Source of the DNA: Rhizobium sp. Q54
Lineage (GTDB): Bacteria > Pseudomonadota > Alphaproteobacteria > UBA2966 > CAIVPW01
NCBI GenBank assembly: GCA_945947575.1
Contig: CAMEYM010000005.1
Coordinates: 1-64,000, forward strand
Direction: 5' to 3'
DNA: 64,000 bases
Of this stretch, positions 33,541 to 56,415 are shown piece after piece. Made by a program: the position numbers and the translations under genes. The notes beneath the pieces were generated by a model. That model made no database searches. It was given only the letters and a program-made list of their open reading frames with translations, and was not told the DNA's origin. The stretch's first letter is position 1; each line of letters opens with the position of its first letter.

Positions 33541-34074
33541 ATGCTTTGCCCTCGCGCCTGTCGCGCTCTGCTCGCCGCCATTGTGCTCGCTTTCGCCGCG
33601 CCGGCGATGGCCCAGCCGGCCGACCCCGCCGTCGTCGAAGCCGGCATGCGCCTCTACAAGTCCGATGCCGCCGACTGCGAGTTTTGCCACGGCTGGCAGG
33701 GCCTGGGCCGCCAGCACACCGTCTTCTTCAGCGACACCGTCGCCTTCGGTCCTTCGCTGGTGGACAGCAAGATGACGCGCGAGCAGATGATCGCCGTCGT
33801 CTCGTGCGGCAAACGCGGCGGCGGTCTCATGCCGCGCTATCGCGGCGACTCCTGGTCGGCCGCCTACCGTTGCGACGGCAAGGTCGCCGCCGACATCACC
33901 GCCGCCGATCCGCCCCTGCCGTTGAACGGCCAGCGCCAGCTCACGCCGTCCCAGATCGAGGCCGTCGTCACCTACGTGCAGGCGGTCTACCAGGGCACGG
34001 GCATGAACGTGGAGAGCTGCCTCAAGTATTGGGGCACGGCCAACCGGGCCTGCGACGTCTTCGCCGGCCGCTGA
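33541..34074 (+). CDS. Periplasmic cytochrome c with extra conserved cysteines (paralogue 1 of 4)
   Basis: 177 residues. A signal peptide ends at AMAQ; the heme site is CEFCH (Cys46, Cys49, His50), and the likely axial Met is in GLMPRY. Four further cysteines occur in VSCGKRG, YRCDGK, and the C-terminal SCLKYWG...ACDVF block. The same four cysteines and spacing recur in the cytochromes at 34947, 35510 and 36034, so two disulfides are likely. It presumably shuttles electrons from the quinoprotein dehydrogenases of this island. Start ATG 33541 is directly before the signal peptide. Confidence 0.85.
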   Translation: MLCPRACRALLAAIVLAFAAPAMAQPADPAVVEAGMRLYKSDAADCEFCHGWQGLGRQHTVFFSDTVAFGPSLVDSKMTREQMIAVVSCGKRGGGLMPRYRGDSWSAAYRCDGKVAADITAADPPLPLNGQRQLTPSQIEAVVTYVQAVYQGTGMNVESCLKYWGTANRACDVFAGR

Positions 34075-34188
34075 GGCCCCTCAAGCTTCGGCTTCCTTTC
34101 AAGACTCGGTGAAGGGCAACCCCACCGCCTGGGCTGCGCGGCTGGATACTCGCCTGACCCGCGCTATACAGCTATTCTGAGGCCTTCA

Positions 34189-34950
34189 ATGTCGGCCGCC
34201 GCCGCGGGGCGCGGCCCCGAAATCGGGCACTTTTCGATGGCAAGTCGCGGATTCCTCGTCGCCAACGTCGTCTTGTGGGTCGGCGCCGCCGCTGTCCTCG
34301 GCTACGTGTTCCTGCAGAACAGGCCGCCCAGCGTCGAGGGCGAGCCGGTGGTTGTTGCGGCGAATGGCAAGCAGGCGACTGCTCCCGCAGCCCAGCGCGC
34401 CGGCGGCGGTGCGGCGGGCGGCGCGCAGGTAGCGGAGCGCCCGGTGCCCAAGCTCGACGAGCGCGGCTTCTTCATCGAGGACTTCTACAAGCCCCAGGCC
34501 TACGACCTGCAGGCCGACCTTGCGGCGGCGACCGCCGAGGGCAAGACGCTGCTTGTCATGTGGGAGCGCGAGTTCTGCGAGTACTGCCAGCAGCTGCACG
34601 AGACCATCCTGCTCGACCCGAAGCTGCACGACTATCTCGCCAACACCTTCTACGTCGTGCGCTACGACTTCTATGCGCGCAGCGGCAAGAAGGTGAAGGA
34701 CTTCGACGGCACCGAGTGGCGCGAGGACGACCTCGCGCGGCGCCATCGCGTGCTCGGCACGCCGGCCCTCGAGTTCCGCGTCGAGGGCGGCAAGGAAGTG
34801 CTGCGCATTCCTGGCCTCGTTCCCGCCGACGTGTTGCTCGTCGCCTTCCAGTTCGTCGAGAACCGCATCTACGAGAGCGGCAAGAACATCAACCAGTACC
34901 TGATCGAGATCGGCGCGGTCGGCGAGCCCGGGGGGCGTGCCGGCCCGTGA
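34189..34950 (+). CDS. Membrane-anchored thioredoxin-fold protein (SoxW-like)
   Basis: 253 residues. One N-terminal membrane helix (FLVANVVLWVGAAAVLGYVFL) and an Ala/Gly-rich linker precede a thioredoxin fold with redox pair CEYC near residue 130 (WEREFCEYCQQLHE) and a cis-Pro turn GTPALEF. Such proteins reduce or isomerise disulfides in the periplasm, for instance during cytochrome c maturation. The four neighbouring cytochromes each carry four non-heme cysteines, which offers an obvious substrate. Its TGA overlaps the GTG of the next cytochrome. Confidence 0.8.
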   Translation: MSAAAAGRGPEIGHFSMASRGFLVANVVLWVGAAAVLGYVFLQNRPPSVEGEPVVVAANGKQATAPAAQRAGGGAAGGAQVAERPVPKLDERGFFIEDFYKPQAYDLQADLAAATAEGKTLLVMWEREFCEYCQQLHETILLDPKLHDYLANTFYVVRYDFYARSGKKVKDFDGTEWREDDLARRHRVLGTPALEFRVEGGKEVLRIPGLVPADVLLVAFQFVENRIYESGKNINQYLIEIGAVGEPGGRAGP

Positions 34951-35507
34951 TCGCTGGCGTGCGCGCGCTCCTCGCTGCCGCCGTCGCGGCGGCTGTGTCG
35001 CTCCCGTTTGCCGCTTTCGTTGTGGCCCAGGAGTTCGACTTCGACGCTCCGCCGAAGCCGGTGCTCACGGGTATCGACCTCGGCATTTCGGTCTACCGGC
35101 CGGAACTGGGCAACTGCCAGCTGTGCCACGGGTGGAGCGGGCTCGGCGGCAACGCTTTCGAGGACAACAACGGCAAGCAATGGGACCCGGGTCCCTCGCT
35201 CGTCGACTCGAAGATGACGGCCGAGGAGATGATCGAGATCATCTCGTGCGGCAAGCTCGGCCACAGCATCATGCCGCAGTACCTCGAGGACGCGTGGAAG
35301 CCCGAGCGTCCGTGCTGGGGCAAGACGGCGGCCGAGGTGCCGGACACCGAACGCGCCGGTCTGTGGGGTGCTCCCCTCTACGTCGATGAGATCGAAGCCG
35401 TGGTGCTGTGGATTCAGACCGCGTACCAGGGCAAGCAGTTCTCGCTGGAGCACTGCCTCCTGTACTTCGGTACGCCCGACGCTGCCGGCTGCAACTACCT
35501 GCGCTGA
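34947..35507 (+). CDS. Periplasmic cytochrome c with extra conserved cysteines (paralogue 2 of 4)
   Basis: 186 residues starting with a GTG overlapping the previous stop (GTGA). After a signal peptide ending FVVAQ, the heme site is CQLCH (Cys57, Cys60, His61) and the probable axial Met lies in SIMPQY. Extra cysteines: ISCGKLG, ERPCWGK, and HCLLYFG...GCNYL. A conserved GPSLVDSKMT segment follows the heme domain, shared with paralogue 1. It is part of the tight thioredoxin-cytochrome run. Confidence 0.87.
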   Translation: MIAGVRALLAAAVAAAVSLPFAAFVVAQEFDFDAPPKPVLTGIDLGISVYRPELGNCQLCHGWSGLGGNAFEDNNGKQWDPGPSLVDSKMTAEEMIEIISCGKLGHSIMPQYLEDAWKPERPCWGKTAAEVPDTERAGLWGAPLYVDEIEAVVLWIQTAYQGKQFSLEHCLLYFGTPDAAGCNYLR

Positions 35508-35509
35508 TC

Positions 35510-36037
35510 ATGACTCCGCGGCTGCGCCCCCACGCGCTGCTCGGCATTTGCTTCTTGATTGCTTCGCCTGCCATCGCGCAGCAATTCGACCCCGCGCAAG
35601 TCGAGGCCGGTATGACGGTTTACAAGCCGGCAGTCGCCAACTGCGAGCCGTGCCACGGCTACGGCGGCAACGGTGCGCTGGCGCTCGATGAGTACGGCGG
35701 CCGCGGCACGGCGTTCGGCCCGCCTCTGACCACCTCGACGATGACGCGCGCGGAGATGATCGATGCCGTTTCGTGCGGCTTTCGCAACGACTGGCTGACC
35801 ATGCCGCAATACCTGCAGAAGGCGTGGACGCCCGAGCGCCCCTGCGGCGGCAAGGTGCGGGCCGACATGAAGCCGGAGGAAAGCCCGCTGCTTGCCGGCC
35901 GCCCCTTGACGGAGGCGCAGATCGAGGCTGTGGTGACGTTCGTGCAGGCGTTCTATCAGGGCGGTACGATGAATCGCGAGAAGTGCGTGCGGTACTGGGG
36001 CGACCGCTCGACGGCCTGCAATATCTTCGCGCAATGA
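35510..36037 (+). CDS. Periplasmic cytochrome c with extra conserved cysteines (paralogue 3 of 4)
   Basis: 175 residues. Signal peptide ending AIAQ, heme site CEPCH (Cys45, Cys48, His49), candidate axial Met in LTMPQY, and the extra cysteines in VSCGFRN, ERPCGGK and KCVRYWG...ACNIF. It starts three bases after the paralogue 2 stop and ends in a 4-base overlap with paralogue 4. The C-terminal helix ending QAFYQGGTMNREK is shared with the other three. Confidence 0.87.
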   Translation: MTPRLRPHALLGICFLIASPAIAQQFDPAQVEAGMTVYKPAVANCEPCHGYGGNGALALDEYGGRGTAFGPPLTTSTMTRAEMIDAVSCGFRNDWLTMPQYLQKAWTPERPCGGKVRADMKPEESPLLAGRPLTEAQIEAVVTFVQAFYQGGTMNREKCVRYWGDRSTACNIFAQ

Positions 36038-36549
36038 AGCGCGCCGCTCTCTTCGCCGCGACGCTCGCCCTGTGCGGCCTGTCCGGCCCGGTCGCCGCCC
36101 AGGAGGCCAGCCCGGCCGTCATCAGCGCCGGCATCCAGATCTACAAGGTCGCGGGCAACTGCTGGGAGTGCCACGGCTGGAGCGGGCAGGGCGGTCTGCC
36201 GTTCGTCATCGGCGACCTCGCGGGTCAGAACCCCGGCCCGGCGCTCGTCGATACCAAGCTCGACCGCGCCGGAATCCTCGAGGCCATCACCTGCGGCAAG
36301 CCGGGCAGCATCCACCCGGTGTTCTCGCGCGAAGCCTGGACGCCGGCGCTCAAGTGCTACGGCAAGACTCGCGCGGACCTCAGGCCTGACGAAAAGCTGC
36401 CGGACATTCAGATCACGCTGACCGAGGGACAGCTCCAGACCGTCACCACGCTCGTGCAGCAGTTCTACCAGGGCAAGACGATGACGAAGGCGAAGTGCTT
36501 GCAGTACTTCGGCGTCACCCAGTCGATCGTCTGCGATCCGTTCCCCTAA
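36034..36549 (+). CDS. Periplasmic cytochrome c, paralogue 4, with Met-to-His axial position
   Basis: 171 residues; signal peptide ending PVAAQ, heme site CWECH (Cys43, Cys46, His47). It keeps the four extra cysteines (ITCGKPG, LKCYGK, KCLQYFG...VCDPF). Where the other three paralogues have the motif MPxY, this one reads SIHPVF. The axial Met is therefore replaced by His and the heme may be bis-His ligated with a lower potential. The ATG overlaps the previous stop. A hairpin follows at 36556. Confidence 0.86.
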   Translation: MKRAALFAATLALCGLSGPVAAQEASPAVISAGIQIYKVAGNCWECHGWSGQGGLPFVIGDLAGQNPGPALVDTKLDRAGILEAITCGKPGSIHPVFSREAWTPALKCYGKTRADLRPDEKLPDIQITLTEGQLQTVTTLVQQFYQGKTMTKAKCLQYFGVTQSIVCDPFP

Positions 36550-36555
36550 AACGCA

Positions 36556-36582: not shown

Positions 36583-36598
36583 GGTGCGCGGTTGAGTC

Positions 36599-38782
36599 CT
36601 ACTCCGCCGGCATCGGCGACGGGACGCCAATCCCGATTCCCGCCTCGGTGCGCTGGTCCTTGCGCTTCTTGCGCGCGATGAGCGGCGGGCACTTCTCGTC
36701 GTCGTAGTAATCGACCTGGCAGTCGAGGCACTGCAGGCACTCGTTCATGTTGATTTGGCCGGATGGCTCGATGGCGCCGACGGGACAATCGGTCTCGCAG
36801 ATGCGGCACTGGGTGCCGCACTGCGGCTTGCGCTTCAGCCACTTGAACATGCGGATGCGGCCGAACACCGACAGCGCGCCGCCCAGCGGGCACAGGAAGC
36901 GGCAGTAGAAGCGCTCGATGAACAGGCCCGCGGCGAGCAGCGCCACGGCGTAGATCACGTACGGCAGCTCACGGATGAAGTAGACGTTGATGGCCGTCTT
37001 GAACGGCTCGACTTCCTCGAGCGCGTTGGCCATGTCGACCGAGTAGAAGCCGATGCCAATGATGGCTACGGCCAGCACGTACTTCACCGCCCACAGGCGC
37101 TCCTGCAGCGAGGGCGGCACCTTGATCTGCGGCACGCGCAGCAGAATTGCGGCCTTGTTGCTCAGTTCCTGCAATGCGCCGAACGGGCACAGCCAGCCGC
37201 AGAACACGCCACGGCCAAGCAGGAACAGCGTGATCGCGATGTAGATGCCGAGGATGAAGAAGAGCGGATCGAGCAGGAACGTCTCGAGCCCGGTGCCGGT
37301 GAACGGCGCCGTCATGTAGGTAAGGATGTTGATGATCGAGAACTGCGCGCCGACCATCCATCCGAGCCAGACCAGCGTGAAGCTCAGGATGCCGACGCGC
37401 ACGACGTTGTACGCCATGCGGTTCTTCACCAGCACGTCCTGCAGCAGGAAGACGAGCGTCACCGCCACCAGCAGCGCCGCCAGGATGCCGATATTGACGA
37501 GCTCGTTCTGCCAGATATCGATGTAGGCGGGCACGAACACCGGCACCGGCAGCAGCTTGTGCATGTCGGGCAGGTCGTAGGTGAGCGGGATCTCGATCGT
37601 CATGGGCGCGCCGGCCTTGGTGAAACCAGGCTGGATCAGCACCACTTTGAACGGCTTGAGCGGGTCGAGGCCGAGCGTGGGCGGAATCGCGAACACCATG
37701 CTCTCGCGCGACGGCAGCAGGTCGCCCGCGTAAGCGGCGCGGACGAGGATGCGCGCCGACTGGGGTGCGGTGACGAGGAACGACGTGCCGCCCTGCTCGA
37801 TGCGGACCTGGTCGAAAATGTTGCCCGTGGAGCTGCGCAGGTGGCTGTTGCTGACGAAGGACGAATAGCCCTTGTCGGCCATCCAGATGCTGAGGCCGTT
37901 GGCACCTTCGCGCCCCACGATCTCGCGATAGCGCTCGTCGCCGAACATGTTCTGGCCGATCGACGGCGGCGAGAGCAGCGCCGTGTTGAACTGGATGAAG
38001 AGCTCGTCGAGCCGTTCCAACTGTTGCGGGCTGATGTCGGGCCGGGCGCCGGCGCCGCCTTTCGCCTCGAACAGCTTGATGGCGTCGCGCACGGTCAACG
38101 TGATGCCGACGATCGAGCCGCGCTCGATCAGCTCCTGCGCGGTGTAGAGGGTGAAGCCCTTGCGATCGAGCGCGGGCTCGGTGACGACCACTTCTGCTTC
38201 GCCGACAATGTGAGTCGTGAACACGCGCGTCGCGGCATTCTGCATGCCCGCCTTCATCGCGCGGCCGGAGATGCTGGCGCCTGCCAACAGGTCCGGGTTG
38301 ACGGTGCCCCAGCGCTGAATCGTCACGGCCGCGAATCCGGCCAGGAACTCATCCATGCTCCGCTGCGGCACACCGCGGCCGATGATGGTTTCGCTGTGGT
38401 TCTGCAGCACGACGCCGGTCAGCTTGCCGTCCAGCGTCAGTCCGCCGAAGAAGTCGAACGGCTTGCCGGCGTAGCCGGTGGCGTTGACCACATCCATCGT
38501 CGAGAAGATGTAGCCCTTCAGTGCGCCCCCCACCCACACTTCCAGCGCCGGCGTGCGGATGCCCTCGGTCGTCTTCAGTACGACGTCCTTGTCGGGGAAC
38601 AGATCCTTCACCGTCTCCGGCTTGATACGTTGGATGATGGTGCCCGCAACGAACGCAGTCGCGCCCGGGCGCATTTGCACCTGCGCCCACGCCGGTGGAG
38701 CCACGCCCATGCTGAGGCCTGCCGCAACGAAGAGGGCGCACAGCCCTGCGATCCGCCGAAACGCGTGCAACAACCCTGTCAC
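36599..38782 (-). CDS. NosR-like membrane flavin/iron-sulfur protein
   Basis: 727 residues from a GTG at 38782 (GGGAGGG about 7 bases upstream). A signal sequence ends near PPAWAQ. A periplasmic FMN-binding-like domain follows (about 30-170, with AGASISGRAM). Then come several membrane helices and two polyferredoxin-type motifs on the cytoplasmic side: CGWLCPFGALQE and CRFLCPLGG. Two 4Fe-4S clusters close it: CGTQCRICETDCPVGAI and CLQCLDCQVDYYDDEKC. NosR/NirI proteins pass electrons from quinol to the periplasm for nitrous oxide reductase maturation. No nos genes are here; the context is a PQQ island, so it may serve the cytochromes or metal handling. Confidence 0.85.
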   Translation of the reverse strand: MTGLLHAFRRIAGLCALFVAAGLSMGVAPPAWAQVQMRPGATAFVAGTIIQRIKPETVKDLFPDKDVVLKTTEGIRTPALEVWVGGALKGYIFSTMDVVNATGYAGKPFDFFGGLTLDGKLTGVVLQNHSETIIGRGVPQRSMDEFLAGFAAVTIQRWGTVNPDLLAGASISGRAMKAGMQNAATRVFTTHIVGEAEVVVTEPALDRKGFTLYTAQELIERGSIVGITLTVRDAIKLFEAKGGAGARPDISPQQLERLDELFIQFNTALLSPPSIGQNMFGDERYREIVGREGANGLSIWMADKGYSSFVSNSHLRSSTGNIFDQVRIEQGGTSFLVTAPQSARILVRAAYAGDLLPSRESMVFAIPPTLGLDPLKPFKVVLIQPGFTKAGAPMTIEIPLTYDLPDMHKLLPVPVFVPAYIDIWQNELVNIGILAALLVAVTLVFLLQDVLVKNRMAYNVVRVGILSFTLVWLGWMVGAQFSIINILTYMTAPFTGTGLETFLLDPLFFILGIYIAITLFLLGRGVFCGWLCPFGALQELSNKAAILLRVPQIKVPPSLQERLWAVKYVLAVAIIGIGFYSVDMANALEEVEPFKTAINVYFIRELPYVIYAVALLAAGLFIERFYCRFLCPLGGALSVFGRIRMFKWLKRKPQCGTQCRICETDCPVGAIEPSGQINMNECLQCLDCQVDYYDDEKCPPLIARKKRKDQRTEAGIGIGVPSPMPAE

Positions 38783-39002: not shown

Positions 39003-40325
39003 GTGAACATTCTGATCGCGCACCTGCGCCGCGCATTGGCCGTGGCCGCCGTCGTTATGGGAGCCGTGCTGGCGCCCGCTTCGGCCCAAGAACTGCCGAT
39101 GTTCGACAAGCCGGTCCACATCGGCGTGTTGCTGCCGGAATTGAAGCCGGAAGCGGGACCCTTCTGGGCCGAGATCGCCAAGGCCGCAAGAGAAGGGACC
39201 ATCGCGACGGAGGAGGACTTCGCGTTCAACGCTGAGCTTGTGGGCATGGACTTCAAGGTTCTCACCGAGACGCCCGTTCGGGGCGACGTCGCTGCGGCGG
39301 CGCAGAGGCTGGTCGATGCGGGCGCCTTCGCGATCATGGGCGGCTACACCAACGCGGAGACGCGGGCATTGGGCGCATGGGCCGAGCAGAAGGGTATTCC
39401 GTTCCTCAACATCGGCGCCTCCGCCGACATCCTGCGCAACGAGCAATGCTTCGCCACGACCTTCCACCTCGAGCCGAGCGCGGCGATGTACCTCGACTCG
39501 ATCGTCGGCTGGTATGTGCGCTCGGGCCTGCGCCAGTGGTACTTCGTCGTCGAGGACAGCGACGAGGGCCGTGCCCAGTATGAGCGCGTGCGCTGGTCCA
39601 TGAACGAGCGCCACTTCGGCGCCCGTGAGGTCGGCCGCATGTATCTGGCGCCCGGCCGGGCCGGCGGCGCCAACCTGGCCGCCGCCGTGCGGCGCGCCAA
39701 TGCCGACGTCGTCATCCTGCTGCAGAGCGCCGCCGACCAGCTGGTGGCGCTGAAGGACCTCGAGACCGGCGGCGTCCCTGGCACGGTTCAGGTCACCGGC
39801 TATCCGCACACCGAGGCGCAGACGCGGGCGTTCTACGAGGCCTCGCGCGCCGTTGCTCCGACCCTCGGCGTCGGCCACCGCGCCGCGGCGTGGGAGGCGA
39901 CCATCGACGCCTACGGCGCGCGCGAGTACAACGCGCGCTACCGCGAGCGTTGGGGCGTGCCCATGGAGGCCACCGCCTGGGCCATCTATCACGCCATGCG
40001 AGCGTTCTATGAGGCGGCGTTCTTCAATCAGGGCAAGACCGATCCGAAGTCGGTCATGAACTACATGATGAATCCGGGCAGCGTGTTCGACTTGCACAAG
40101 GGCGTCGCCACCTCGTTCCGTCCGTGGGATCGCCAGCAGCGCCAGTCGCTCTACCTGATCAAGGTCAACTCGGCCGACCGCGCCACCTCGAAGCTCGCTC
40201 AGGCCCTGCTCGTCGGCGAGCTGCCGGCGATCTATATGCCAGGCACGGATCTGGTCGAGCGGCTCGACCAGATTGGCGATCTGGCCAACCGCAGCCGCTG
40301 CCGCAAACCGACACCCCTGCGCTAG
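39003..40325 (+). CDS. Type I periplasmic binding protein of the PQQ-linked ABC system (PedA-like)
   Basis: 440 residues from GTG 39003 with GGGAGG upstream. Signal peptide ends APASAQ. The two-lobe type I fold shows HIGVLLPELKPEAGPF, GAFAIMGGYTNAETRAL, GIPFLNIGASADIL and a C-terminal block SFRPWDRQQRQSLYLIKV. It fits the binding-protein component that accompanies PQQ-dependent catabolism; the ped operon of Pseudomonas has comparable proteins tied to lanthanide supply. It resembles the protein at 44754-46121 in this final block (NFRPWDHQLRQPLYAIDI). Confidence 0.75.
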   Translation: MNILIAHLRRALAVAAVVMGAVLAPASAQELPMFDKPVHIGVLLPELKPEAGPFWAEIAKAAREGTIATEEDFAFNAELVGMDFKVLTETPVRGDVAAAAQRLVDAGAFAIMGGYTNAETRALGAWAEQKGIPFLNIGASADILRNEQCFATTFHLEPSAAMYLDSIVGWYVRSGLRQWYFVVEDSDEGRAQYERVRWSMNERHFGAREVGRMYLAPGRAGGANLAAAVRRANADVVILLQSAADQLVALKDLETGGVPGTVQVTGYPHTEAQTRAFYEASRAVAPTLGVGHRAAAWEATIDAYGAREYNARYRERWGVPMEATAWAIYHAMRAFYEAAFFNQGKTDPKSVMNYMMNPGSVFDLHKGVATSFRPWDRQQRQSLYLIKVNSADRATSKLAQALLVGELPAIYMPGTDLVERLDQIGDLANRSRCRKPTPLR

Positions 40326-40338
40326 GAGCCGAGGCCCT

Positions 40339-40559: not shown

Positions 40560-41633
40560 ATGAAGTATGTGCCCGTGAAGCACGCGGCCGTGGGGCTCGC
40601 GTTTGCTGCAGGTTTGATTGTCGGGACGCCGTCGCTGGCGCAAACGACTCAGACGATGCTGAACGCCACCAGGGCCGGCGACACGTACCGCGTGTACGTC
40701 GCCAACGAGTACAACGCCGACATCACCGTGATCGACGCGACCACGGACGCGGTCATCGGCACCATCCCGATCTCGGGCCGTCCCGGCTTGGTGCGGCCGC
40801 GCGGCATGGCGCTCTCGCCGGACGGCACGATCATCTACGTCTCGGTCAGTGACTTCCATCCCGAGTTCGAGGTGACGGAGGACAAGATCGTCGCCATCGA
40901 CGTGCGCACCAACCAGATTCTGCAAGAGTTCCGCGCCGGCGGTAACCCCGAGCGCGTCGCCATCAGCCCGGACGGCAAGCAGGTGTGGGCGTCCCTCGAG
41001 GCGCTCGCGCAGGGCGGCGGCTACGACATCGCCACCGGCACCCAGTTCGTCCAGTTCCGCGTCGGCATCGAGGCCGAAGGCGTCGCCGTCAGCCCCGACG
41101 GCAAGTGGGTCTACATCACCGCCGAGGCGACCCACACCACGACCGTCTACGACGTCGAGAACAAGCGCATCCTGAAGCACATCCTGGTCGGTAACCGCCC
41201 GCGCGCGGTGGCCTTTTCGCTCGATGGCACCAAGGCGTACGTGTCTGCCGAGATCGGCGGCACCATCTCGGTGATCGACGTCACCAAGAACCATACGCTG
41301 GTTGCCAGCATCAACCTCGGCCTGGACTCGCGTCCGGTCGAGCTCGTGGTCGACCCGGCGGGCAAGTACGTCTATGTCGCCGGCGGCGGCACCAGCGCGA
41401 TCTACGTGATCGACACCGCCACCAACAAGGTCGCGCAGACCATCAAGGAAAAGATGGGCCGCCGTCCGTGGGGTGTCACCGTCACGCTCGACGGCAAGAA
41501 GGTCTATACGGCCAACGGCCTGTCCGACAGCGTCTCCGTGATCGATCCGGAGTGCATGTGCGTCATCAAGAACATCGCCGTCGGTCGCGGCGCCCACTCG
41601 GTGCAGATCGGCCGCATTCCGGCCGGCGCCTAG
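40560..41633 (+). CDS. Exported YVTN-type beta-propeller of the PQQ-linked system
   Basis: 357 residues. Signal peptide ends PSLAQ. At least six repeats of the YVTN type follow, such as YVANEYNADITVIDATTD, VAISPDGKQVWAS, VAVSPDGKWVYIT and YVYVAGGGTSAIYVIDTATN. This corresponds to the beta-propeller protein that accompanies PQQ-dependent ABC systems. ATG 40560 has GGGAGGAAG upstream; the earlier in-frame ATG at 40461 lies before the signal peptide. It is the first gene of a run ending at 44677. Confidence 0.82.
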   Translation: MKYVPVKHAAVGLAFAAGLIVGTPSLAQTTQTMLNATRAGDTYRVYVANEYNADITVIDATTDAVIGTIPISGRPGLVRPRGMALSPDGTIIYVSVSDFHPEFEVTEDKIVAIDVRTNQILQEFRAGGNPERVAISPDGKQVWASLEALAQGGGYDIATGTQFVQFRVGIEAEGVAVSPDGKWVYITAEATHTTTVYDVENKRILKHILVGNRPRAVAFSLDGTKAYVSAEIGGTISVIDVTKNHTLVASINLGLDSRPVELVVDPAGKYVYVAGGGTSAIYVIDTATNKVAQTIKEKMGRRPWGVTVTLDGKKVYTANGLSDSVSVIDPECMCVIKNIAVGRGAHSVQIGRIPAGA

Positions 41634-41647
41634 AGGAGAGGACTTCG

Positions 41648-42748
41648 ATGCAGTTCCAGAACGCGAAGCGCTGGCTCGCGGCCGGCGCGACCGTAGTCAC
41701 CCTGCTCGCCGCCTCGTCGGCATTCTCGCAGCGTGCCGCTCATAAGTTCGAGCCGTACTACGAGACCATGCTGCCGATCAGCCAGGCATTCGGCATCGAG
41801 ATGCTGGATGCCCGCCTGCGCGTCGCCGAGGCGTACACCACGCCGATCAACGCCGACCTGAAGGTCCAGCTCGGCAACATGGCGACCAAGGACCTCGGCC
41901 GCTTCTACGGCACCCTGCAGCAGAAGAACGCGGCGCTCGCCGCCGAGCTCAAGACGGCGGTGGACGCCGTGATGAAGGCGATCAACGAAGGCCAGCCCGC
42001 CGCCGCTCTGGCGGCGCGTGCGCGGCCGCTGGTCGCCAACGCCTACAACCTCGTCATCGACCCCGCGTTGCGCAACAACCTGCAGTTCAAGAGCGCGCTG
42101 ACGGCGTCGTTGCTGGTCGCCGAGGACGGCGTCTCCGAAGGCTTTGAAGAGGCGGTCAAATACCCCAACCGGCAGCAGTATCCGGCCGGCTGGGGCGCGT
42201 GGGAGCGCGTCGAGGTGCTGTGGAAGGAGCTCGCCGCCGCCACGACGCCCGCGCTTGCCTCCGAGGGCACGCTGCTGATGGACAACATGCGGCCCTTCTA
42301 CAAGACCAAGCACCTGCCGCCGGATCCCTTCCCGATGGAGGATCAGGAGGAGCTTGAGGCTCTCTCCCATGGCATGGCGACGGTGCTCGAGAACATCGCC
42401 GACGCCAGCCTCTACGTGGGTCGCGACATGATCCGCCTCGCCCAGACGCTGAATGACGTGCTGACTCCGGCGTGCGCCGACTACGCGGCCGGCCGCGACG
42501 CCATCGCCACAGAGCGCGTCTACGCCGTGCTCGAGCACTTCGTCTCGGAAGCGAGCGGGCTCAGCGGTGCGATCAGCATCATGGCGCCGGCCGCCGAGAC
42601 TCAGGCCCGGTCGCTCTTTCCGCGGCTTGTCGCCACGCGCTACCAGCCGCTGCCCGGCGGCACCGTCAACACGACGATTTCGGCCGCCGATGCGTGCCGC
42701 GGTCTGGTGACGGTAATGGCCGAGGCAAAGAAAGCAGTAGGCGGCTAG
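41648..42748 (+). CDS. Unknown exported all-helical protein in the uptake operon
   Basis: 366 residues with a signal peptide (WLAAGATVVTLLAASSAFSQ). The mature protein is predicted almost entirely helical: FEPYYETMLPISQAFGIEML, LTASLLVAEDGVSEGFEEAV, WGAWERVEVLWKELAAAT and DNMRPFYKTKHLPPDPFP. The acidic, metal-ligand-rich composition would allow cation binding, but no EF-hand is present. I do not recognise the family. Its place between the beta-propeller and the ABC ATPase, 14 bases after the former, argues for a periplasmic partner of the importer. Confidence 0.75.
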   Translation: MQFQNAKRWLAAGATVVTLLAASSAFSQRAAHKFEPYYETMLPISQAFGIEMLDARLRVAEAYTTPINADLKVQLGNMATKDLGRFYGTLQQKNAALAAELKTAVDAVMKAINEGQPAAALAARARPLVANAYNLVIDPALRNNLQFKSALTASLLVAEDGVSEGFEEAVKYPNRQQYPAGWGAWERVEVLWKELAAATTPALASEGTLLMDNMRPFYKTKHLPPDPFPMEDQEELEALSHGMATVLENIADASLYVGRDMIRLAQTLNDVLTPACADYAAGRDAIATERVYAVLEHFVSEASGLSGAISIMAPAAETQARSLFPRLVATRYQPLPGGTVNTTISAADACRGLVTVMAEAKKAVGG

Positions 42749-49112: not shown

Positions 49113-49203
49113 TCATAACCTCCCCTAGGGGCCTGAAGTGCGCTCAGGCGGCGCGGATCGTCCGCCGGTTGGCAAGCTCTTGCGTCCGGCGTCTGACTGC
49201 TAG

Positions 49204-49236
49204 GGATTGTGGTCAAAAAAGGCAGGAGGGGGAAGC
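49204..49236 (-). promoter_or_regulatory. 33-bp box upstream of dehydrogenase copy A
   Basis: On the minus strand: GCTTCC at positions 1-6, TTTTT at 17-21 and ACAATCC at 27-33. The same three blocks at the same spacing occur upstream of copies B (51389-51421) and C (53665-53697). Its inner end lies 92 bases from the ATG. Confidence 0.65.
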
Positions 49237-49337
49237 CCTGGCGGTCGCGCATTGGCGCGCGCCTCCTGTGTCGCGCCGGTGCTGCCCTACTAGGGCTGGT
49301 TGTGTTGCCGGTCCCGCGCCAGTTCGGGAAGCGCTGC

Positions 49338-49376
49338 CCCAAAAAGAAGCGGGGGGAAGGTTGCCCTTCCCCCCGC
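49338..49376 (-). terminator. Terminator after dehydrogenase copy B
   Basis: GCGGGGGGAAGG pairs with CCTTCCCCCCGC around TTGC; the minus-strand tail is TTCTTTTT. It lies 28 bases past the copy B stop. The hairpins after copies B and C share the TTGC loop and a GGGGGAAG-type stem; that after copy D is similar. Confidence 0.88.
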
Positions 49377-49403
49377 AACGTCATGTCCGTGTCTCGCTGC
49401 TAG

Positions 49404-51299
49404 TTAGCCGGGCAGCTTGAACACATAGAGCGTGGTGCCCGAACGACGGTACCGGTTGGCGTCGTTGGCAGCCGCGTTCGCAGCGACGGCAGTGTTCGCC
49501 GCCGCCGAGCTGGCGATGACGGCGATGTACTGCTTGTTGTTGTGCATGTAGGTGATCGGCGATTGGTTCCAACGCGAACCGGTCCGGAACTCCCACACCG
49601 TCTCAAGGGTACGAGCGTTCATGGCGCGCAGAACGCCCTGGTCGTTGCCGCCCTGGAGCAGGAAGCCGCCCGCGGTTGAGCTGACCGGGGTCTGGTTGGC
49701 GACGGCCCAGTCACGTTGAACCGCGATGCGGCGGCCGACCGGGTCCATGGCCTTCAGGCTGCCCGGAGTGGTCGTCACTTGACCGGCGAGATCACGTGCC
49801 GGCTCGGCGGCACCGCCGGCGTTGCGGCGCAGGGTGTAGCCCTGGCCCGGAACGTAATCGCCCTTGATCACGACCTGGGTTTGGCAGGAGTTGTCGGTCG
49901 AAACGTACTTCCAGCCGGTCTGCGGGTTGTAGGTGTCGTTCTGCCAATTGCGCGCAGCGATGCCCGGGCACCACGTGATCTCCGTGCCCGTGTAGTTGTC
50001 CGGCTTGCCCTCGCCGCCGCGCGGGTCGGCCTGGGTGTAACGGCGGCGATCGGCGACGTCGGTAAACGCCATACGATCGATGTCGTACAGCGGCGTGCCG
50101 CGCTCCCAGTCATAGCCCTTCGTGAAGTCGGCGAAGGTATGCATCCACGGCTCGCTGACCAGCTTGCCGGTGGCGCGGTCCCACGCGTGGAACCAGCCGT
50201 TGCGGGCGGCCTTGAGCGCGACCTTGCGCACCTGGCCGTTGACGGTGATGTCGACCAGCGGCGTGTTGAGCGGCTCGTCGAGGTCCCACATGTCCTGCGG
50301 GGTGATGTTGTACGCCCAGATCAGCTCGCCGGTGGTGGCGTCACGGGCCATCTGCGAGGCGCAGAAGTTCGAGTGATAGGTCATCAGGGCGCCCTTGGCG
50401 TCGAGCTCCACCTGACCCCACGGACGGCGATAGTCCGGGTTCCACGGACCGCAGTTGCCGGTCGAGTAGTAGAACATGTTCAGGTCGGGATCGAACGTGA
50501 AGTAGCCCCAGCTGGTGCCACCGCCACGCTTCCACGAGTCGCCGACCCATGTGTCGAGGGCCGGGTTTGCCTGGCTGTGGCCGAAGTAGTTCCTGTTGAA
50601 ACGCGGACCGATGCCGACCTCGTTGCTCGGGCCCATGTTGTACATGGTCCACATCTGACGGCCGGTATCGATGTTGTAGGCGTGCACCTTACCGCGGGCG
50701 CCGCCCTCGCCACCTTCGTTGCCGCCGATGAAGAGCTTGCCGGCGACGATGCCGTTGCCCGCCATGCCCTCGTAGCGCGTGATGTCGGTGCCGACCGTGC
50801 GCCACAGCTGTTCACCCGACTTCGCGTCGAGGCCGATCACCTGGCCGTCGAGGGTGGCGTAGAAGATCTTGTTCTCGGCGTAGTAGAGCGCGCGCGTCTG
50901 CGCGCCGCAGCAGGTCTGCGACGTGGCGAGAGCGACGTCCATGGTCGGACGGAACTCCCACTTGATGACGCCCTGCTTGGTGAGGTCGAGCGCGTAGACG
51001 TAGTTCGGCTTCGGAGAAGCGATGTACATCGTGTCGCCGACGACCAGCGGCGAGGCCTCGTGGCTGTCGAGAATGCCGATCTGCAGCGTCCAGGCGACGC
51101 CGAGATTCTTGATGTTGGTCAGATTGATCTGATCGAGGGCCGAATAGTTCCAGCCGTTGTAGGTGTAGTTAGGCATCACGACGTTGGCCGGGTCCTTCGA
51201 CTTGGCAATTACGTCGGCATTGCCGAACGCGGCGCCGGACGCGCCCGCGACGGCGGCGAACGCCAGCGCGGAGGTCGTTACATTCCACGTCTTTGACAT
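49404..51299 (-). CDS. PQQ-dependent alcohol dehydrogenase, lanthanide type (copy B)
   Basis: 631 residues from the ATG at 51299 (GGGAGGG upstream), with signal peptide ending SGAAFG. It keeps the vicinal disulfide TCCGAQTRA, the Asn in STGNCGPWN, and DMWDLDEPLNTP with the lanthanide-type Asp-x-Asp. It differs from copy A in the loop GIGPRFNRNYFGHSQANPA. In the N-terminal blade it shares DSHEASPLVVGDT with copy D rather than with A or C. The conserved 33-bp box lies 90 bases upstream, as for copy A. Confidence 0.93.
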   Translation of the reverse strand: MSKTWNVTTSALAFAAVAGASGAAFGNADVIAKSKDPANVVMPNYTYNGWNYSALDQINLTNIKNLGVAWTLQIGILDSHEASPLVVGDTMYIASPKPNYVYALDLTKQGVIKWEFRPTMDVALATSQTCCGAQTRALYYAENKIFYATLDGQVIGLDAKSGEQLWRTVGTDITRYEGMAGNGIVAGKLFIGGNEGGEGGARGKVHAYNIDTGRQMWTMYNMGPSNEVGIGPRFNRNYFGHSQANPALDTWVGDSWKRGGGTSWGYFTFDPDLNMFYYSTGNCGPWNPDYRRPWGQVELDAKGALMTYHSNFCASQMARDATTGELIWAYNITPQDMWDLDEPLNTPLVDITVNGQVRKVALKAARNGWFHAWDRATGKLVSEPWMHTFADFTKGYDWERGTPLYDIDRMAFTDVADRRRYTQADPRGGEGKPDNYTGTEITWCPGIAARNWQNDTYNPQTGWKYVSTDNSCQTQVVIKGDYVPGQGYTLRRNAGGAAEPARDLAGQVTTTPGSLKAMDPVGRRIAVQRDWAVANQTPVSSTAGGFLLQGGNDQGVLRAMNARTLETVWEFRTGSRWNQSPITYMHNNKQYIAVIASSAAANTAVAANAAANDANRYRRSGTTLYVFKLPG

Positions 51300-51388
51300 T
51301 TTGCGTTTCCCTCCCAGGAAACAGGTACGCGCCCCCCTCGGAGCGACGTTACCGGTCGGCGGGGCGAACATTCCCCACCAAATCGGCT

Positions 51389-51421
51389 GGATTGTGTTTG
51401 AAAAAGGGCAGGAGGGGAAGC
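51389..51421 (-). promoter_or_regulatory. 33-bp box upstream of dehydrogenase copy B
   Basis: Same layout as at 49204: GCTTCC, TTTTT and ACAATCC at positions 1-6, 17-21 and 27-33 of the minus strand. The intervening CCTGCC-like stretch is also close to copy A. It lies 90 bases from the ATG. Confidence 0.65.
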
Positions 51422-51519
51422 TTCCAGCGGCAAACTGGCAGACCCCTTGTGCGCGCACCTCGCCGCCGCGCGCAATCAAATTTCGCGCCTCGCCGGGGAA
51501 CCAGAGAATCCTTGGCCCG

Positions 51520-51558
51520 CCCAAAAGAAAGAGGGGGAAGACTTGCGTCTTCCCCCTC
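51520..51558 (-). terminator. Terminator after dehydrogenase copy C
   Basis: GAGGGGGAAGAC pairs with GTCTTCCCCCTC around TTGC, followed on the minus strand by TTTCTTTTGGG. It ends the copy C transcript. Confidence 0.88.
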
Positions 51559-51606
51559 TCGTCTTAGGCGCTGCCTACACCGCAGGCAGCGTGTCTTTGC
51601 TGACCG

Positions 51607-53520
51607 TTAGCCGGGCAGCTTGAAGACGTACAGGGTCGAGCCCGAACGGCGGTAGCGGTTCGAGTCGTTCGCGGCTGCGTTCGCAGCGACGGCCGTGTTG
51701 GCCGCGGCCGAGGACGCGATCACGGCGACGAATTGCTTGCCGCCCTGGCTGTAGGTGATCGGCGACTGACGGCAGCGTGAGCCCCACTTGAAGGCCCACA
51801 CTTCTGCACCGGTAGTCGCATTCATGGCACGGAACGAGCCATTGTCGTTACCGCAGGTGAAGAGCAGGTCGCCGGCAGTAGCCATCACCGGAACCTGGTT
51901 CGAGAAGCGGTAGTTGACCGTGAACGCGGTCTTGTTGCCGGCCACGTCGATCGCGAGCAGCTGGCTCTGGTTCGGCGTGTCGGTGCCGTCCACGAGCTTG
52001 TTGGGCAGACCGCCCGGCAGCGTGACTGACTGACGCAGCGTGTAGCCCTGACCGGGGACGTAGTCGCCCTTGATCATGCGCTGGCAGCCGCCGTCGAGGC
52101 TGTTGCTGAAGTACAGGAAGCCCGTCTTCGGCGAGTAGGCGTCGTTGTCCCAGTTACGGGCGTTGGTACCCGGGTAGTAGCACGCTTCGGTACCCGTGTA
52201 GCCGGCTGCGCCGGCAGCAATGGGGCCTGTCCGGTTGGGCAAGTACTTGTCCTGGTCGGCCTTGTCCGTCCAGTAGGCGACGTTGATGTTCATGTTGTGG
52301 CGGCCCGTGGTGCGGTTGATCCACTTCCCCTGGGCATCCTTCTTCCACATGTCCTGGAAGGTGTGCATCCACGGATCGTTCAACATCTCGCCGGTCTGGC
52401 GATCCCAGATGTAGAACAGGCCGTCGCGCGCCGCCTTGATGGCCGTCTTACGGACGGTGCCACCGATGTTGACGTCAACCAGCGGCGTGATCAGCGGATG
52501 GTCGATGTCCCAATGATCTTGCGGCGTGAGGTTGAACGCCCAGATCAACTCGCCGGTGGTGCCGTCGCGGGCCATCTGCGAAGCGCAGTAGTTCGAGCGC
52601 CAGTCGGCGAGGCCGCCGTTGGCGTCGAGATCGAACTTGCCCCACTCGCGGCGATAGTCCGGGTTCCACGGACCGCAGTTGCCGGTCGAGTAGTGGAAGA
52701 TGTTGAGGTCCGGATCCCACGTGAAGTAGCCCCACGCGGTGCCGCCGCCACGCTTCCACGAGTCGCCCCACCAGCTGTCGAGAGCCGGGTTCGGCTTCTT
52801 GTCGTCGACGTAGAAGGGCTTGAACCGCGGGCCGATGCCGACCTCGTTGTTCGGGCCCATGTTGTACATGACCCACTGCTGACGACCGGTGTCGATGTTG
52901 TAGGCCTGCACCTTACCGCGGGCGCCGCCTTCACCACCTTCGTTGCCGCCGATGAACAGCTTGCCGATGACGATGTTGTTGCCGGCCATGCCCTCATAGC
53001 GGGTGATGTCCGTGCCAACCGTGCGCCACAGCTGCTCGCCCGACTTCGCGTCCAGGCCGATGTTCTGGCCGTCGAGGGTCGAGTAGAAGATCTTGCCTTC
53101 GGCGTAATACAGACCACGGGTCTGCGCGCCGCAGCAGGTCTGCGAGGTCGCCAGAGCGACGTCCATGGTGGGACGGAATTCCCACTTGATGACGCCGTCT
53201 TTGGTCAGGTCGAGGGCGTAGACGTAGTTCGGCTTCGGGGACGCGATGTACATCGTGTCGCCGATGACCAGCGGCGAAGCTTCGTGCTGGTCGAGAATGC
53301 CGATCTGCATCGTCCAAGCGACCGACAGGTTCTTGACGTTGGTCAGGTTGATCTGATTCAGCGTCGAGTAGTTCCAGCCGTTGTACGTGATGCTCGGCAT
53401 CACGACGTTGGCCGGATCGGCGGACAGCTTCTTCACGTCGTCGTTGGCGACGGCAGTGCCCGACATCCCCGCGACGGCGGCAAGCGCCAGCGCGGAAGTA
53501 GTTACGTTCCACTTGTTCAT
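51607..53520 (-). CDS. PQQ-dependent alcohol dehydrogenase, lanthanide type (copy C)
   Basis: 637 residues, signal peptide ending SGTAVA. It has TCCGAQTRG, STGNCGPWN and the active-site block DHWDIDHPLITP. Asp-x-Asp is kept, but the flanking residues are His where the other copies have Met and Glu. The loop after GIGPRFKP (FYVDDKKPNPALDSWWGD) is unique among the four. Together these changes around the active site suggest a different substrate from the others. The conserved 33-bp box lies 145 bases upstream. Confidence 0.93.
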   Translation of the reverse strand: MNKWNVTTSALALAAVAGMSGTAVANDDVKKLSADPANVVMPSITYNGWNYSTLNQINLTNVKNLSVAWTMQIGILDQHEASPLVIGDTMYIASPKPNYVYALDLTKDGVIKWEFRPTMDVALATSQTCCGAQTRGLYYAEGKIFYSTLDGQNIGLDAKSGEQLWRTVGTDITRYEGMAGNNIVIGKLFIGGNEGGEGGARGKVQAYNIDTGRQQWVMYNMGPNNEVGIGPRFKPFYVDDKKPNPALDSWWGDSWKRGGGTAWGYFTWDPDLNIFHYSTGNCGPWNPDYRREWGKFDLDANGGLADWRSNYCASQMARDGTTGELIWAFNLTPQDHWDIDHPLITPLVDVNIGGTVRKTAIKAARDGLFYIWDRQTGEMLNDPWMHTFQDMWKKDAQGKWINRTTGRHNMNINVAYWTDKADQDKYLPNRTGPIAAGAAGYTGTEACYYPGTNARNWDNDAYSPKTGFLYFSNSLDGGCQRMIKGDYVPGQGYTLRQSVTLPGGLPNKLVDGTDTPNQSQLLAIDVAGNKTAFTVNYRFSNQVPVMATAGDLLFTCGNDNGSFRAMNATTGAEVWAFKWGSRCRQSPITYSQGGKQFVAVIASSAAANTAVAANAAANDSNRYRRSGSTLYVFKLPG

Positions 53521-53664
53521 ATAAGCCCTCCCATTAGGACTTCTGAGGCACGAACGGGCGCCGCGGTTTCGCTTCGCCGTTCGCGATTTCGCTGAGGTGC
53601 TCGGCGGGGTACGCACAAGGCAAACGCCTCGAGCGATCTCGCTGTGTCGCCCCCCAACTAGGGG

Positions 53665-53697
53665 GGATTGTCTGCGAAAAACCGAACCGGCGGAAGC
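53665..53697 (-). promoter_or_regulatory. 33-bp box upstream of dehydrogenase copy C
   Basis: GCTTCC, TTTTT and ACAATCC at the same three offsets as in the boxes of copies A and B, although the sequence between is different here. This makes the three blocks the likely recognised part. Confidence 0.6.
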
Positions 53698-53864
53698 CTG
53701 AGTCTTCCGCGCTCACGGTAGCGTTCCTGCTCAGGAAATGAGCAGCCACCACGTGTGTCGCGGCACATACGTCGCGGCACATAATAAGAGAGGGGGGGGG
53801 CCTAGGCCTTCTCCTCCAAACACGGTGTTGTTTGTGGCGTCGCCAAGCTGAAGGAGCCAACGGA

Positions 53865-53894
53865 GAAGGGGGAGAACTTGCGTCCTCCCCCTTC
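53865..53894 (-). terminator. Hairpin after dehydrogenase copy D
   Basis: GAAGGGGGAG-A-AC pairs with GT-C-CTCCCCCTTC around TTGC, with one mismatch. No T-tract follows on the minus strand, so termination may be inefficient. Confidence 0.65.
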
Positions 53895-53925
53895 AAACCT
53901 TTAGTTCGCTCGATCTTGCTGGTGC

Positions 53926-55839
53926 TTAGCCGGGCAGTTTGAACACGTACAGCGTGGTGCCCGAACGGCGGTAACGGTTGGCGTCGGTGGCAGCCGCAGT
54001 CGCCGCAACGGCCGTGTTGGCGGCCGCCGAGCTCGAGATGATCGCGATGTACTGCTTGCCGCCGAACGAGTAGCTGATCGGCGATTGGTTGTAGCGAGCG
54101 CCGGAGCGGAACGTCCACGCGATGTCTCCGGTGCGCGCGTTGAACGCCCGCAACACGCCGGAGTCGTTGCCGCCCTGGAACAGCAGTCCGCCTGCGGTGG
54201 CGAGGATGGGCAGCGCGTTGGCGTCGCCGGTGTTCCAGTCCTTGCTCCATACGGTGCGGCGGTTGACCGGATCATTGGCGAGTAGCTGACCCGAAACGGT
54301 GGTCACCTTGCCGGTCACGTCCTTGGCCGGGTTGGTGACGCCGGCGGCGCCGCGCGTCAGGTTGTAGCCTTGGCCCGGCACGTAGTCGCCGCGCACGGCT
54401 GCAAGCGTCGAGCAGCTCGTGTTGTTTGGCGTGTAGAGGAGTCCGGTCTGCGGTGAGAACGCGTCGTTGTGCCAGTTACGGGCCGACGTGCCGGGGCAGT
54501 AGTAGACCTCGGTGCCAACGTAGTTCGTGACGGTCTTCGGCGCCGGATCGTGCTGGGTGTACTTGCGGCGATCGGCGACGTCGGTGAACAGGATCTTGTC
54601 CATGTCGTAGTTGGGCAGGCCGGTCGTCATGTTGACGTAGTTGGCGGTCGGATTGCCCGGGTTGCGGAAGATGTCGGAGTACGTGTGCATCCACGGCTCC
54701 ATCACCAGCTTGCCGTTGGCGCGATCCCACACATAGAAGAGTCCGTTGCGCGCGGCCTTGATCGCCACCTTGCGGGTGGTGCCGCCGATGTTGAGATCGA
54801 CGAGCGGCGTGATCAGCGGCTCGTCGAGGTCCCACATGTCGGCCGGCGTCAGGTTGTAGGCCCACACCAACTCGCCGGTGATGGCGTCGCGTGCCATCTG
54901 CGAGGCGCAGAAGTTGTTGTGGTAGGCGACCAGGCCGCCGTTGGCGTCGAGGTCGGACTTGCCCCATTCGCGGCGATAGTCCGGGTTCCACGGGCCGCAG
55001 TTGCCGGTCGAGTAATAGAAGAGACCGACCTCGGGGTCGTACGTGAAGTAGCCCCAGCTGGTGCCACCGCCGCGCTTCCACGAGTCGCCGAACCAGCTGT
55101 CGAGCGCCGGGTTGGCGCCGGCCAGGTACGGATAGTTCTTGTTGAAGCGGGCGCCGATGCCGACTTCGTTGTTCGGGCCCATGTTGTACATGGTCCACAT
55201 CATGCGGCCGGTGTCGATGTTGTAGGCCTGCACCTTGCCGCGGGCGCCGCGCTCGCCGCCTTCGTTGCCGCCGATGAACAGCTTGCCGATGACGATGTTG
55301 TTGCCGGCCATGCCTTCACCGCGCGTGATGTCGGTGCCGACGGTGCGCCACAGCTGCTCGCCGCTCTTTGCGTCGAGGCCGATGTTCTGGCCGTCGAGGG
55401 TCGAGTAGAAGATCTTGCCTTCGGCGTAATACAGGCCGCGGGTCTGCGCACCGCAGCAGGTCTGCGCCGTGGCGAGCGCTACGTCCATGGTCGGACGGAA
55501 CTCCCACTTGATGACCCCTTCCTTGGCGAGATCGAGGGCGTAGACGTAGTTGGGCTTCGGAGACGCGATGTACATCGTGTCGCCGACGACCAGGGGTGAC
55601 GCCTCGTGGCTGTCGAGGATGCCGATCTGCAGCGTCCACGCAACCTGCAGGTTCTTGACGTTGTTCAGGTTGATCTGCTCGAGGGCCGAGTAGTTCCAGC
55701 CGTTGTACGTGATGCTCGGCATCACGACATTTGCCGGATCCTTCGACTTGGCGAGTACGTCATCATTCGCGAATGCGGTACCGGACACGCCGGCGACGGC
55801 AATTGCCGCCAGCGACGTCGACACTTTCCACTTCGACAT
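53926..55839 (-). CDS. PQQ-dependent alcohol dehydrogenase, lanthanide type (copy D)
   Basis: 637 residues, signal peptide ending VSGTAFA. It has TCCGAQTRG, STGNCGPWN and DMWDLDEPLITP with Asp-x-Asp. It shares DSHEASPLVVGDT with copy B but the central GIGARFNKNYPYLAGANPA loop with copy A, so it is a mosaic. No copy of the 33-bp box was found in its short leader. A cytochrome c gene lies upstream on the same strand with a terminator between. Confidence 0.93.
   Translation of the reverse strand: MSKWKVSTSLAAIAVAGVSGTAFANDDVLAKSKDPANVVMPSITYNGWNYSALEQINLNNVKNLQVAWTLQIGILDSHEASPLVVGDTMYIASPKPNYVYALDLAKEGVIKWEFRPTMDVALATAQTCCGAQTRGLYYAEGKIFYSTLDGQNIGLDAKSGEQLWRTVGTDITRGEGMAGNNIVIGKLFIGGNEGGERGARGKVQAYNIDTGRMMWTMYNMGPNNEVGIGARFNKNYPYLAGANPALDSWFGDSWKRGGGTSWGYFTYDPEVGLFYYSTGNCGPWNPDYRREWGKSDLDANGGLVAYHNNFCASQMARDAITGELVWAYNLTPADMWDLDEPLITPLVDLNIGGTTRKVAIKAARNGLFYVWDRANGKLVMEPWMHTYSDIFRNPGNPTANYVNMTTGLPNYDMDKILFTDVADRRKYTQHDPAPKTVTNYVGTEVYYCPGTSARNWHNDAFSPQTGLLYTPNNTSCSTLAAVRGDYVPGQGYNLTRGAAGVTNPAKDVTGKVTTVSGQLLANDPVNRRTVWSKDWNTGDANALPILATAGGLLFQGGNDSGVLRAFNARTGDIAWTFRSGARYNQSPISYSFGGKQYIAIISSSAAANTAVAATAAATDANRYRRSGTTLYVFKLPG
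55085..55200 (-). repeat. 116-bp block identical to copy A (48352-48467)
   Basis: Identical to 48352-48467 over 116 bases and divergent outside it. It encodes the loop and blade around GARFNKNYPYLAGANPA. Confidence 0.9.
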
Positions 55840-55883
55840 GAATTAGCCTCCCCTTAGGTTGGTGGTTACGCGCACTACAACGG

Positions 55884-55928
55884 CACCAAAAACGACAAAA
55901 CCGCCGGACGTTGTTTCGGCGCCGGCGG
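55884..55928 (-). terminator. Terminator after the cytochrome c gene
   Basis: On the minus strand CCGCCGG pairs with CCGGCGG around a 14-base loop, followed by TTTTGTCGTTTTT. It lies between the cytochrome c stop and the copy D leader. Confidence 0.8.
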
Positions 55929-55971
55929 CTTTGTGCCTCGATGCGGGCCTACGCCCGCAAGTCTCTGATCC

Positions 55972-56415
55972 TCAGCCGCCCGGACCGCGCTGTGCCTTGA
56001 CCATCTCCGGCGTGGCGTTGCCGCCGAAGGCGTTGCCGAATGAGTTCATCACGTAGGCGGTGATGGCCGCGATCTGGCGGTCGTTCAGCGCGTCGGCGAA
56101 CGGCGGCATGCCGTGCTCGACCGCGCCGACCAGGACCTGACTGATGACGGCGCCCGCGGCCTTCATGTAGTCGTTGCCGGCGAGCTTGGGGCCGTCGCCG
56201 CCCTGGCCGTTGGCGCCGTGGCAGCCGGCACACTCCTTGACGTACAGCGGTCCGCCCTCGCGGATCATGGTTGCCTGATCGACCGCCTGGGCGAGCTGCA
56301 GGTAGCCGCCACCGGTCAGTGCCGGCGCCTGCGGTTGCGGAAGTCCGATGGGCCCGGCTGCGATCAGCCCGAGCGCGCCCGTCAGGGTCATTGCGATTGT
56401 CAGCGGTAGTTTCAT
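55972..56415 (-). CDS. Periplasmic class I cytochrome c of the quinoprotein island
   Basis: 147 residues from ATG 56415. A signal peptide (TIAMTLTGALGLIAAG) and a short Pro-rich stretch precede the heme domain: GGPLYVKECAGCHGANGQGG with site CAGCH, GPKLAGNDY, and axial Met in HGMPPFADAL. It lacks the four extra cysteines of the 33.5-36.5 kb cytochromes and so belongs to a different subgroup. Upstream of dehydrogenase copy D, it is a natural candidate for its direct electron acceptor, as XoxG is for XoxF. Confidence 0.87.
   Translation of the reverse strand: MKLPLTIAMTLTGALGLIAAGPIGLPQPQAPALTGGGYLQLAQAVDQATMIREGGPLYVKECAGCHGANGQGGDGPKLAGNDYMKAAGAVISQVLVGAVEHGMPPFADALNDRQIAAITAYVMNSFGNAFGGNATPEMVKAQRGPGG

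Follow-up and report, generated by a model that had tools for sequence, protein, structure and literature searches.

Does a run of genes for pyrroloquinoline quinone (PQQ) dehydrogenases, cytochromes and an ATP-binding cassette (ABC) system form a complete lanthanide-dependent oxidation and metal-handling unit, and how is its ABC part related to known lanthanide transporters? The question is raised by positions 33541-56415 of the window, i.e. the whole 64000-base stretch analysed here, which makes up bases 1-64000 of contig C5 in the Rhizobium sp. Q54 genome (2.49 Mb, 40 contigs, GC ~0.67). Genes were called, their translations curated and the window proteins scanned against Pfam and NCBIfam; the closest relatives used for comparison are mostly alphaproteobacterial metagenome-assembled genomes (MAGs), and several, judging from their isolate names, appear to be lake samples (Baikal, Erken and others). 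The original prediction, made from the bases alone, had listed four PQQ dehydrogenases, five cytochromes c and a set of accessory and ABC proteins in this island, and the gene calls and profile matches recovered every one of these elements. The island is a real, conserved quinoprotein cluster, and its ABC system, a divergent relative of Ped/Lut, is linked to the dehydrogenases.

Four XoxF-like dehydrogenases in a conserved neighbourhood

The gene set is conserved as a neighbourhood in related genomes, this synteny rules out a chance assembly of the island, and the lack of neighbourhood conservation that would have refuted the original prediction was not observed. As far as contigs extend, the conserved order is cytochrome E, dehydrogenase, XoxJ-like protein and second substrate-binding protein (SBP2), facing permease, ATPase, helical protein, beta-propeller and first substrate-binding protein (SBP1). 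This order was found in genus mates (L016/L039 and L017/L040), in a second family genus that has just one dehydrogenase (L019/L044), and in the Rhodobacterales strain Roseitranquillus sediminis (L066), where the proteins are 35-69 % identical to those of the window. The dehydrogenase-XoxJ-SBP2 block faces the divergent ABC permease in six of the seven genomes having that permease, the contig ending in the seventh; in relative G003 the ABC half is visible up to a contig end. In Bauldia, other ABC genes lie between the permease and the dehydrogenase-XoxJ-SBP2 block: MAG TGS_PRO15 carries a NosR-like gene and ApbE, then propeller, helical protein, ATPase and permease, with SBP2, XoxJ and dehydrogenase further on. 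NosR-like genes also adjoin the module in the window's own family, and relative G007 combines a NosR-like gene and ApbE with an ABC set of the type found on own contig C4 (see below) and a homologue of the helical protein.

All four dehydrogenases, DH1 (47211-49112), DH2 (49404-51299, start set at the ATG at 51299), DH3 (51607-53520) and DH4 (53926-55839), are encoded on the minus strand and display 68-77 % mutual identity. They match the NCBIfam PQQ alcohol dehydrogenase model TIGR03075 at 367-426 bits (DH1: 426), under its 480-bit cut-off. The XoxF metal ligands Glu, Asn and Asp, plus the extra Asp two residues on, are intact in each of them. A phmmer search of PDB with DH1 returned XoxF enzymes at the top (4mae, 336 bits; 7o6z, 310; 6oc5, 296; 6dam, 294), followed by MxaF (4tqo, 283 bits), with the quinoprotein ethanol dehydrogenases 6zcv/6zcw far lower (191-201 bits); the closest solved structures are thus XoxF, before MxaF and PedE/PedH-type enzymes. 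The window enzymes share metal ligands, CysCys pair and overall length with 4mae and 7o6z, but differ in being four divergent paralogues with an insert that holds two extra cysteines, and DH1 is 36 % identical to the XoxF of Sinorhizobium meliloti (S. meliloti). The lanthanide-type character proposed in the original prediction is therefore borne out as far as the complete ligand set goes, while lanthanide dependence of these enzymes is predicted from their sequences. A fifth close copy, 85 % identical to DH3 and with all four ligands kept, is located on contig C6. The same contig holds a sixth copy (L026:8435-10303; 56 % identity to DH1), in which Glu, Asn and the first Asp are gone; it may be a quinoprotein relative without metal.

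Strong terminator-like hairpins, the best three in the region, lie on the minus strand 3′ of DH1 (47135-47162), DH2 (49349-49376) and DH3 (51529-51560), suggesting that the dehydrogenase genes are probably transcribed separately. No common regulatory motif was seen 5′ of the four genes, where the gaps align poorly and no sigma-70-like sites were found. Across 47211-55839, the middle parts of the four genes are much alike and the C-terminal third is divergent, third codon positions included: between DH1 and DH4, third-position identity is 82-88 % in alignment columns 130-270 and ~50 % in columns 410-560. Gene conversion in the middle part, or stronger constraint there, is possible.

A divergent ABC module and the Ped/Lut orthologue on contig C4

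The plus-strand half of the module comprises SBP1 (39003-40325; Peripla_BP_6), a YVTN beta-propeller (40560-41633), an exported all-helical protein (41648-42748), an ABC ATPase of the ABC-2 exporter type (42861-43700) and an ABC-2 permease (43697-44677; PF01061). Opposite them on the minus strand are SBP2 (44754-46121; TIGR03863, 97 bits), a second PedA1-like type I binding protein kept beside XoxJ, and the XoxJ/MoxJ-like periplasmic binding protein itself (46124-46951), which covers the full TIGR03871 (XoxJ/MoxJ_2) model at 190 bits, below the 212-bit cut-off. The plus-strand order is that of PedA1-PedA2-PedB-PedC with one gene, the helical protein, inserted (PMC6839425). To this extent the likeness to the ped and lut systems advanced in the original prediction holds; orthology does not. 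Every member of the window set scores under the curated cut-off of its PQQ-associated model: SBP1 reaches 111 of 414 bits (TIGR03863), the propeller 213 of 287 (TIGR03866), the ATPase 236 of 302 (TIGR03864) and the permease 98 of 241 (TIGR03861). The ATPase also matches drrA (294 bits, cut-off 312), its closest PDB chains being ABCA exporters, and the permease, at 91-98 bits with the PedC-type model, is matched better by drrB (daunorubicin exporter). A search of PDB sequences with the permease profile returned no match.

Rather, the true Ped/Lut orthologue is encoded on contig C4 (L081:2069-11924), in a set comprising an ATPase, a sensor histidine kinase, a response regulator, two small exported proteins, a YVTN protein, an SBP, PedC and ApbE. 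Its PedC scores 322 bits against the cut-off of 241 and its SBP 404 against 414, and its ATPase and permease are each ~52 % identical to the xoxF-linked pair of S. meliloti, whereas the window ATPase and permease are 29-41 % identical to the C4 or S. meliloti pair. No PQQ dehydrogenase was called on C4:50000-69000 (a stretch running from 2.1 kb ahead of the ATPase to 8.2 kb past the permease), nor is there a PQQ_2 match anywhere on C4. A PedC above the cut-off was found in all eight family genomes searched. Permease trees resolve three supported groups, namely a C4/S. meliloti type (100/100), a window type (100/99) and a Paracoccus type (95/86). We rejected the window ABC genes as Ped/Lut orthologues on these grounds: scores below the cut-offs, a separate clade and grouping of the S. 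meliloti pair with the C4 copy. The window therefore holds a second, divergent and dehydrogenase-linked module. R. sediminis encodes four PedC-like permeases (>100 bits), each near a PQQ dehydrogenase and a XoxJ-like gene (L109, L110, L111 and L112), a pairing that fits enzyme-dedicated partners better than one shared importer.

Set against known systems, the module shares with Pseudomonas putida PedA1A2BC (PMC6839425) the order of SBP, YVTN propeller, ATPase and ABC-2 permease near PQQ alcohol dehydrogenases, but belongs to another clade, far below the family cut-offs, and has the helical protein and a second SBP in addition. The lut cluster of Methylorubrum extorquens (PMC7391723) likewise ties an SBP, exported proteins, an ATPase and a permease to a XoxF enzyme; unlike lut, the island has no TonB-dependent receptor, and scanning its proteins for an EF-hand pattern gave no match. 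The xoxF cluster of S. meliloti pSymB (CP140948) also unites cytochrome c, xoxF, cytochrome c, xoxJ, SBP, YVTN and ABC genes; however, there a single dehydrogenase is accompanied by an ABC pair orthologous to that on C4 and by glutathione formaldehyde genes.

The exported helical protein has no Pfam or NCBIfam family match. Its AlphaFold2 model (pLDDT 84, all-helical) returned no PDB match at E ≤ 0.001; vinculin-like bundles, with a best E value of 0.0056 and a TM-score of at most ~0.3, were treated as noise. The protein is present in seven of eight genomes of the window's family and also in R. sediminis and Bauldia, while in a class-wide sample of 385 genomes including three family members it was matched in those three only, and a search of plasmids gave no match. 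Close to the C-terminus, some homologues have an acidic stretch. A second gene of this helical family is located on own contig C20 (L022:13062-14246); its product is ~35 % identical and has an aspartate run near the C-terminus, and no dehydrogenase lies on the stretch read around it.

Candidate roles of the module

We read the island as one for periplasmic alcohol or aldehyde oxidation, built round the four XoxF-like quinoproteins, which would employ a light lanthanide, with electrons travelling from PQQ through cytochrome E to an oxidase. The ABC-2 ATPase and permease, together with the propeller, the helical protein and both SBPs, would be dedicated to the neighbouring dehydrogenases, providing or inserting, at the inner membrane and in the periplasm, their metal or some other part of the cofactor, with general uptake left to the C4 orthologue. 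To this reading as a whole we assign a probability of about 0.5. A dedicated supply or insertion role is favoured because the module is linked to dehydrogenase genes in a genome that also has the Ped/Lut orthologue; that it transports lanthanides is something we infer from its sequence. The reading is also favoured by NosR-like and ApbE genes found with this module or with the C4-type module in other lineages, and by the recurrence of MoxR/VWA genes next to quinoprotein clusters of two kinds. Several points weigh against our reading. The phenotype of the known Ped/Lut systems has been taken to reflect cytoplasmic import (PMC6839425, PMC7391723), and the predicted structure of the window permease has a pLDDT of only 36. 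How the three permease clades pair up changes with the choice of root, and the divergence of the permease is therefore no proof of a different function. The Asp-x-Asp sites to which the original prediction pointed are present in all four dehydrogenases as W-D-x-D (DH3, with its differing active-site edge, reads WDIDH), but they are weak evidence by themselves because Escherichia coli (E. coli) glucose dehydrogenase Gcd carries D-M-D in a motif of this type.

The module could instead be a second lanthanide importer that operates as PedA1A2BC/LutAEF do and possibly handles a different lanthanide complex or concentration range. Deletion of PedA1A2BC in P. putida raises the need for lanthanum (La) by ~100-fold (PMC6839425) and lut ABC mutants keep La in the periplasm (PMC7391723), which together with the common SBP-propeller-ATPase-permease order speaks for such an importer. 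The lanthanide enzymes known so far act in the periplasm, and PedH becomes active in vitro when lanthanide is supplied; nevertheless, growth at low lanthanide needs the inner-membrane ABC system, and what cytoplasmic uptake would do for a periplasmic enzyme was left open by the authors (PMC6839425). Since a true orthologue already sits on C4 and throughout the family genomes searched, the window permease fits exporter models better and each of the four R. sediminis permeases is tied to a dehydrogenase, we consider a second importer possible, if somewhat doubtful. The lack of exclusivity of Asp-x-Asp, the ABCA/Drr exporter type of the ATPase and, by analogy, the resemblance of the nearby MoxR/VWA genes to helpers of calcium-dependent MxaF would also suit calcium or mixed-metal dehydrogenases accompanied by an ABC module that moves substrate, product, lipid or something else. 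Complete E/N/D/D ligands in all four genes and best solved relatives that are lanthanide XoxF enzymes make this quite unlikely. That the ABC pair and the helical protein are merely unrelated neighbours of the dehydrogenases is scarcely credible: although ATPase and permease come from very large families, the same nine-gene order in another genus of the family and in R. sediminis contradicts it.

Finally, a lesser case concerns the NosR-like polyferredoxin (Fe-S) membrane protein encoded at 36599-38782 (minus strand; Fer4_5), which scores 501 bits in the NosR equivalog test, under the 1000-bit cut-off. Within the nos cluster, maturation of a metal site in the periplasm is the task of the ABC system NosDFY; NosR, for which a role as electron donor has been proposed, is flavinylated by an ApbE-type protein (PMC7660919). 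By analogy, the island might encode a nos-like metal-insertion machine in which the ABC-2 pair would cycle the propeller, the helical protein and the two binding proteins to load each dehydrogenase, with the NosR-like protein and ApbE giving reducing power. Compared with nosRZDFYLX (PMC7660919), the NosR-like protein, the ABC pair, a periplasmic metalloenzyme and, in relatives, ApbE (NosX-like) recur, whereas the metalloenzyme here is a quinoprotein; the parallel is real for gene content in those relatives with ApbE beside the NosR-like gene. The S/T-G-A-T motif for covalent flavin mononucleotide (FMN) was not found in the window protein. No nos_propeller match indicative of NosZ was present in the own genome, the control genomes giving none either, and a literature search on NosR together with XoxF clusters returned no paper combining both. 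We hold this machine to be unlikely, and it is kept as a lesser case because the ABC parts are hypothetical relatives of NosFY.

Accessory genes and genomic context

Four of the cytochromes c precede the NosR-like gene on the plus strand: cytochrome A (33541-34074; CEFCH; Pfam Cytochrome_CBB3), with an orthologue 91 % identical in a sister species; cytochrome B (34959-35507; CQLCH), a weak Cytochrome_CBB3 match; cytochrome C (35510-36037; CEPCH; Cytochrome_CBB3); and cytochrome D (36034-36549; CWECH), with weak cytochrome c matches, both B and D being recognized by their CxxCH. Between A and B lies a membrane-anchored thioredoxin-like protein (34189-34950, plus strand; CEYC; Pfam Thioredoxin_2) whose position is conserved. 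Cytochrome E (55972-56415, minus strand; PF13442, weak MoxG/PedF matches) occupies the XoxG position and adjoins the dehydrogenase in relatives.

The cluster does not end at 56415, as the original prediction had it. A conserved MoxR/VWA/DUF58 block, divergent from cytochrome E, runs on the plus strand from 56688 to beyond the window end: a membrane protein with no confident Pfam match that is kept beside the dehydrogenase cluster (56688-58274), a conserved 1460-aa BatA/VWA protein (58271-62653; PF07584, PF13519), a MoxR AAA+ ATPase (62717-63742; PF07726) and a DUF58-like gene that extends past the window, the block reaching C5:64626. Its homologues accompany quinoprotein clusters in the family and in Bauldia and occur close to two further clusters of R. 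sediminis, so that MoxR/VWA genes recur by two kinds of quinoprotein cluster. Proteins of this type encoded by mxaRSACKL aid metal insertion into MxaF, and by analogy the block is probably a second maturation helper alongside the ABC module; a literature search on mxaRSACKL returned no paper.

The claim that the system is complete did not survive inspection of the remaining contigs, since PQQ synthesis is encoded on C3 and the single TonB-dependent receptor of the genome on C20. On C3, PqqE scores above its cut-off, and its flanking genes resemble pqqBCD in order and sequence. Just ahead of these PQQ synthesis genes are seven neighbouring small-protein genes (L083:3-3629) whose products share the cysteine-rich start CG[TS]CT[LM]CCK. 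fae was not found in eight genomes, own included, and the glutathione formaldehyde dehydrogenase model gave no match >46 bits in the own genome or in relative G004, other formaldehyde routes not having been searched; R. sediminis has one such match above the cut-off. With no fae and no full-length match to glutathione formaldehyde dehydrogenase, growth of this organism on methanol appears doubtful.

The island puts multi-copy lanthanide-type dehydrogenases in small lake genomes in which neither of the two formaldehyde routes looked for was seen, and its core module is also present in a named strain, R. sediminis MCCB 386. A second, enzyme-linked ABC clade beside an orthologue of the known transporter means that uptake and enzyme loading would be separable by gene deletion. 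Should the nos-like machine prove true, Ped/Lut-type 'importers' in general may act in the metallation of periplasmic enzymes.

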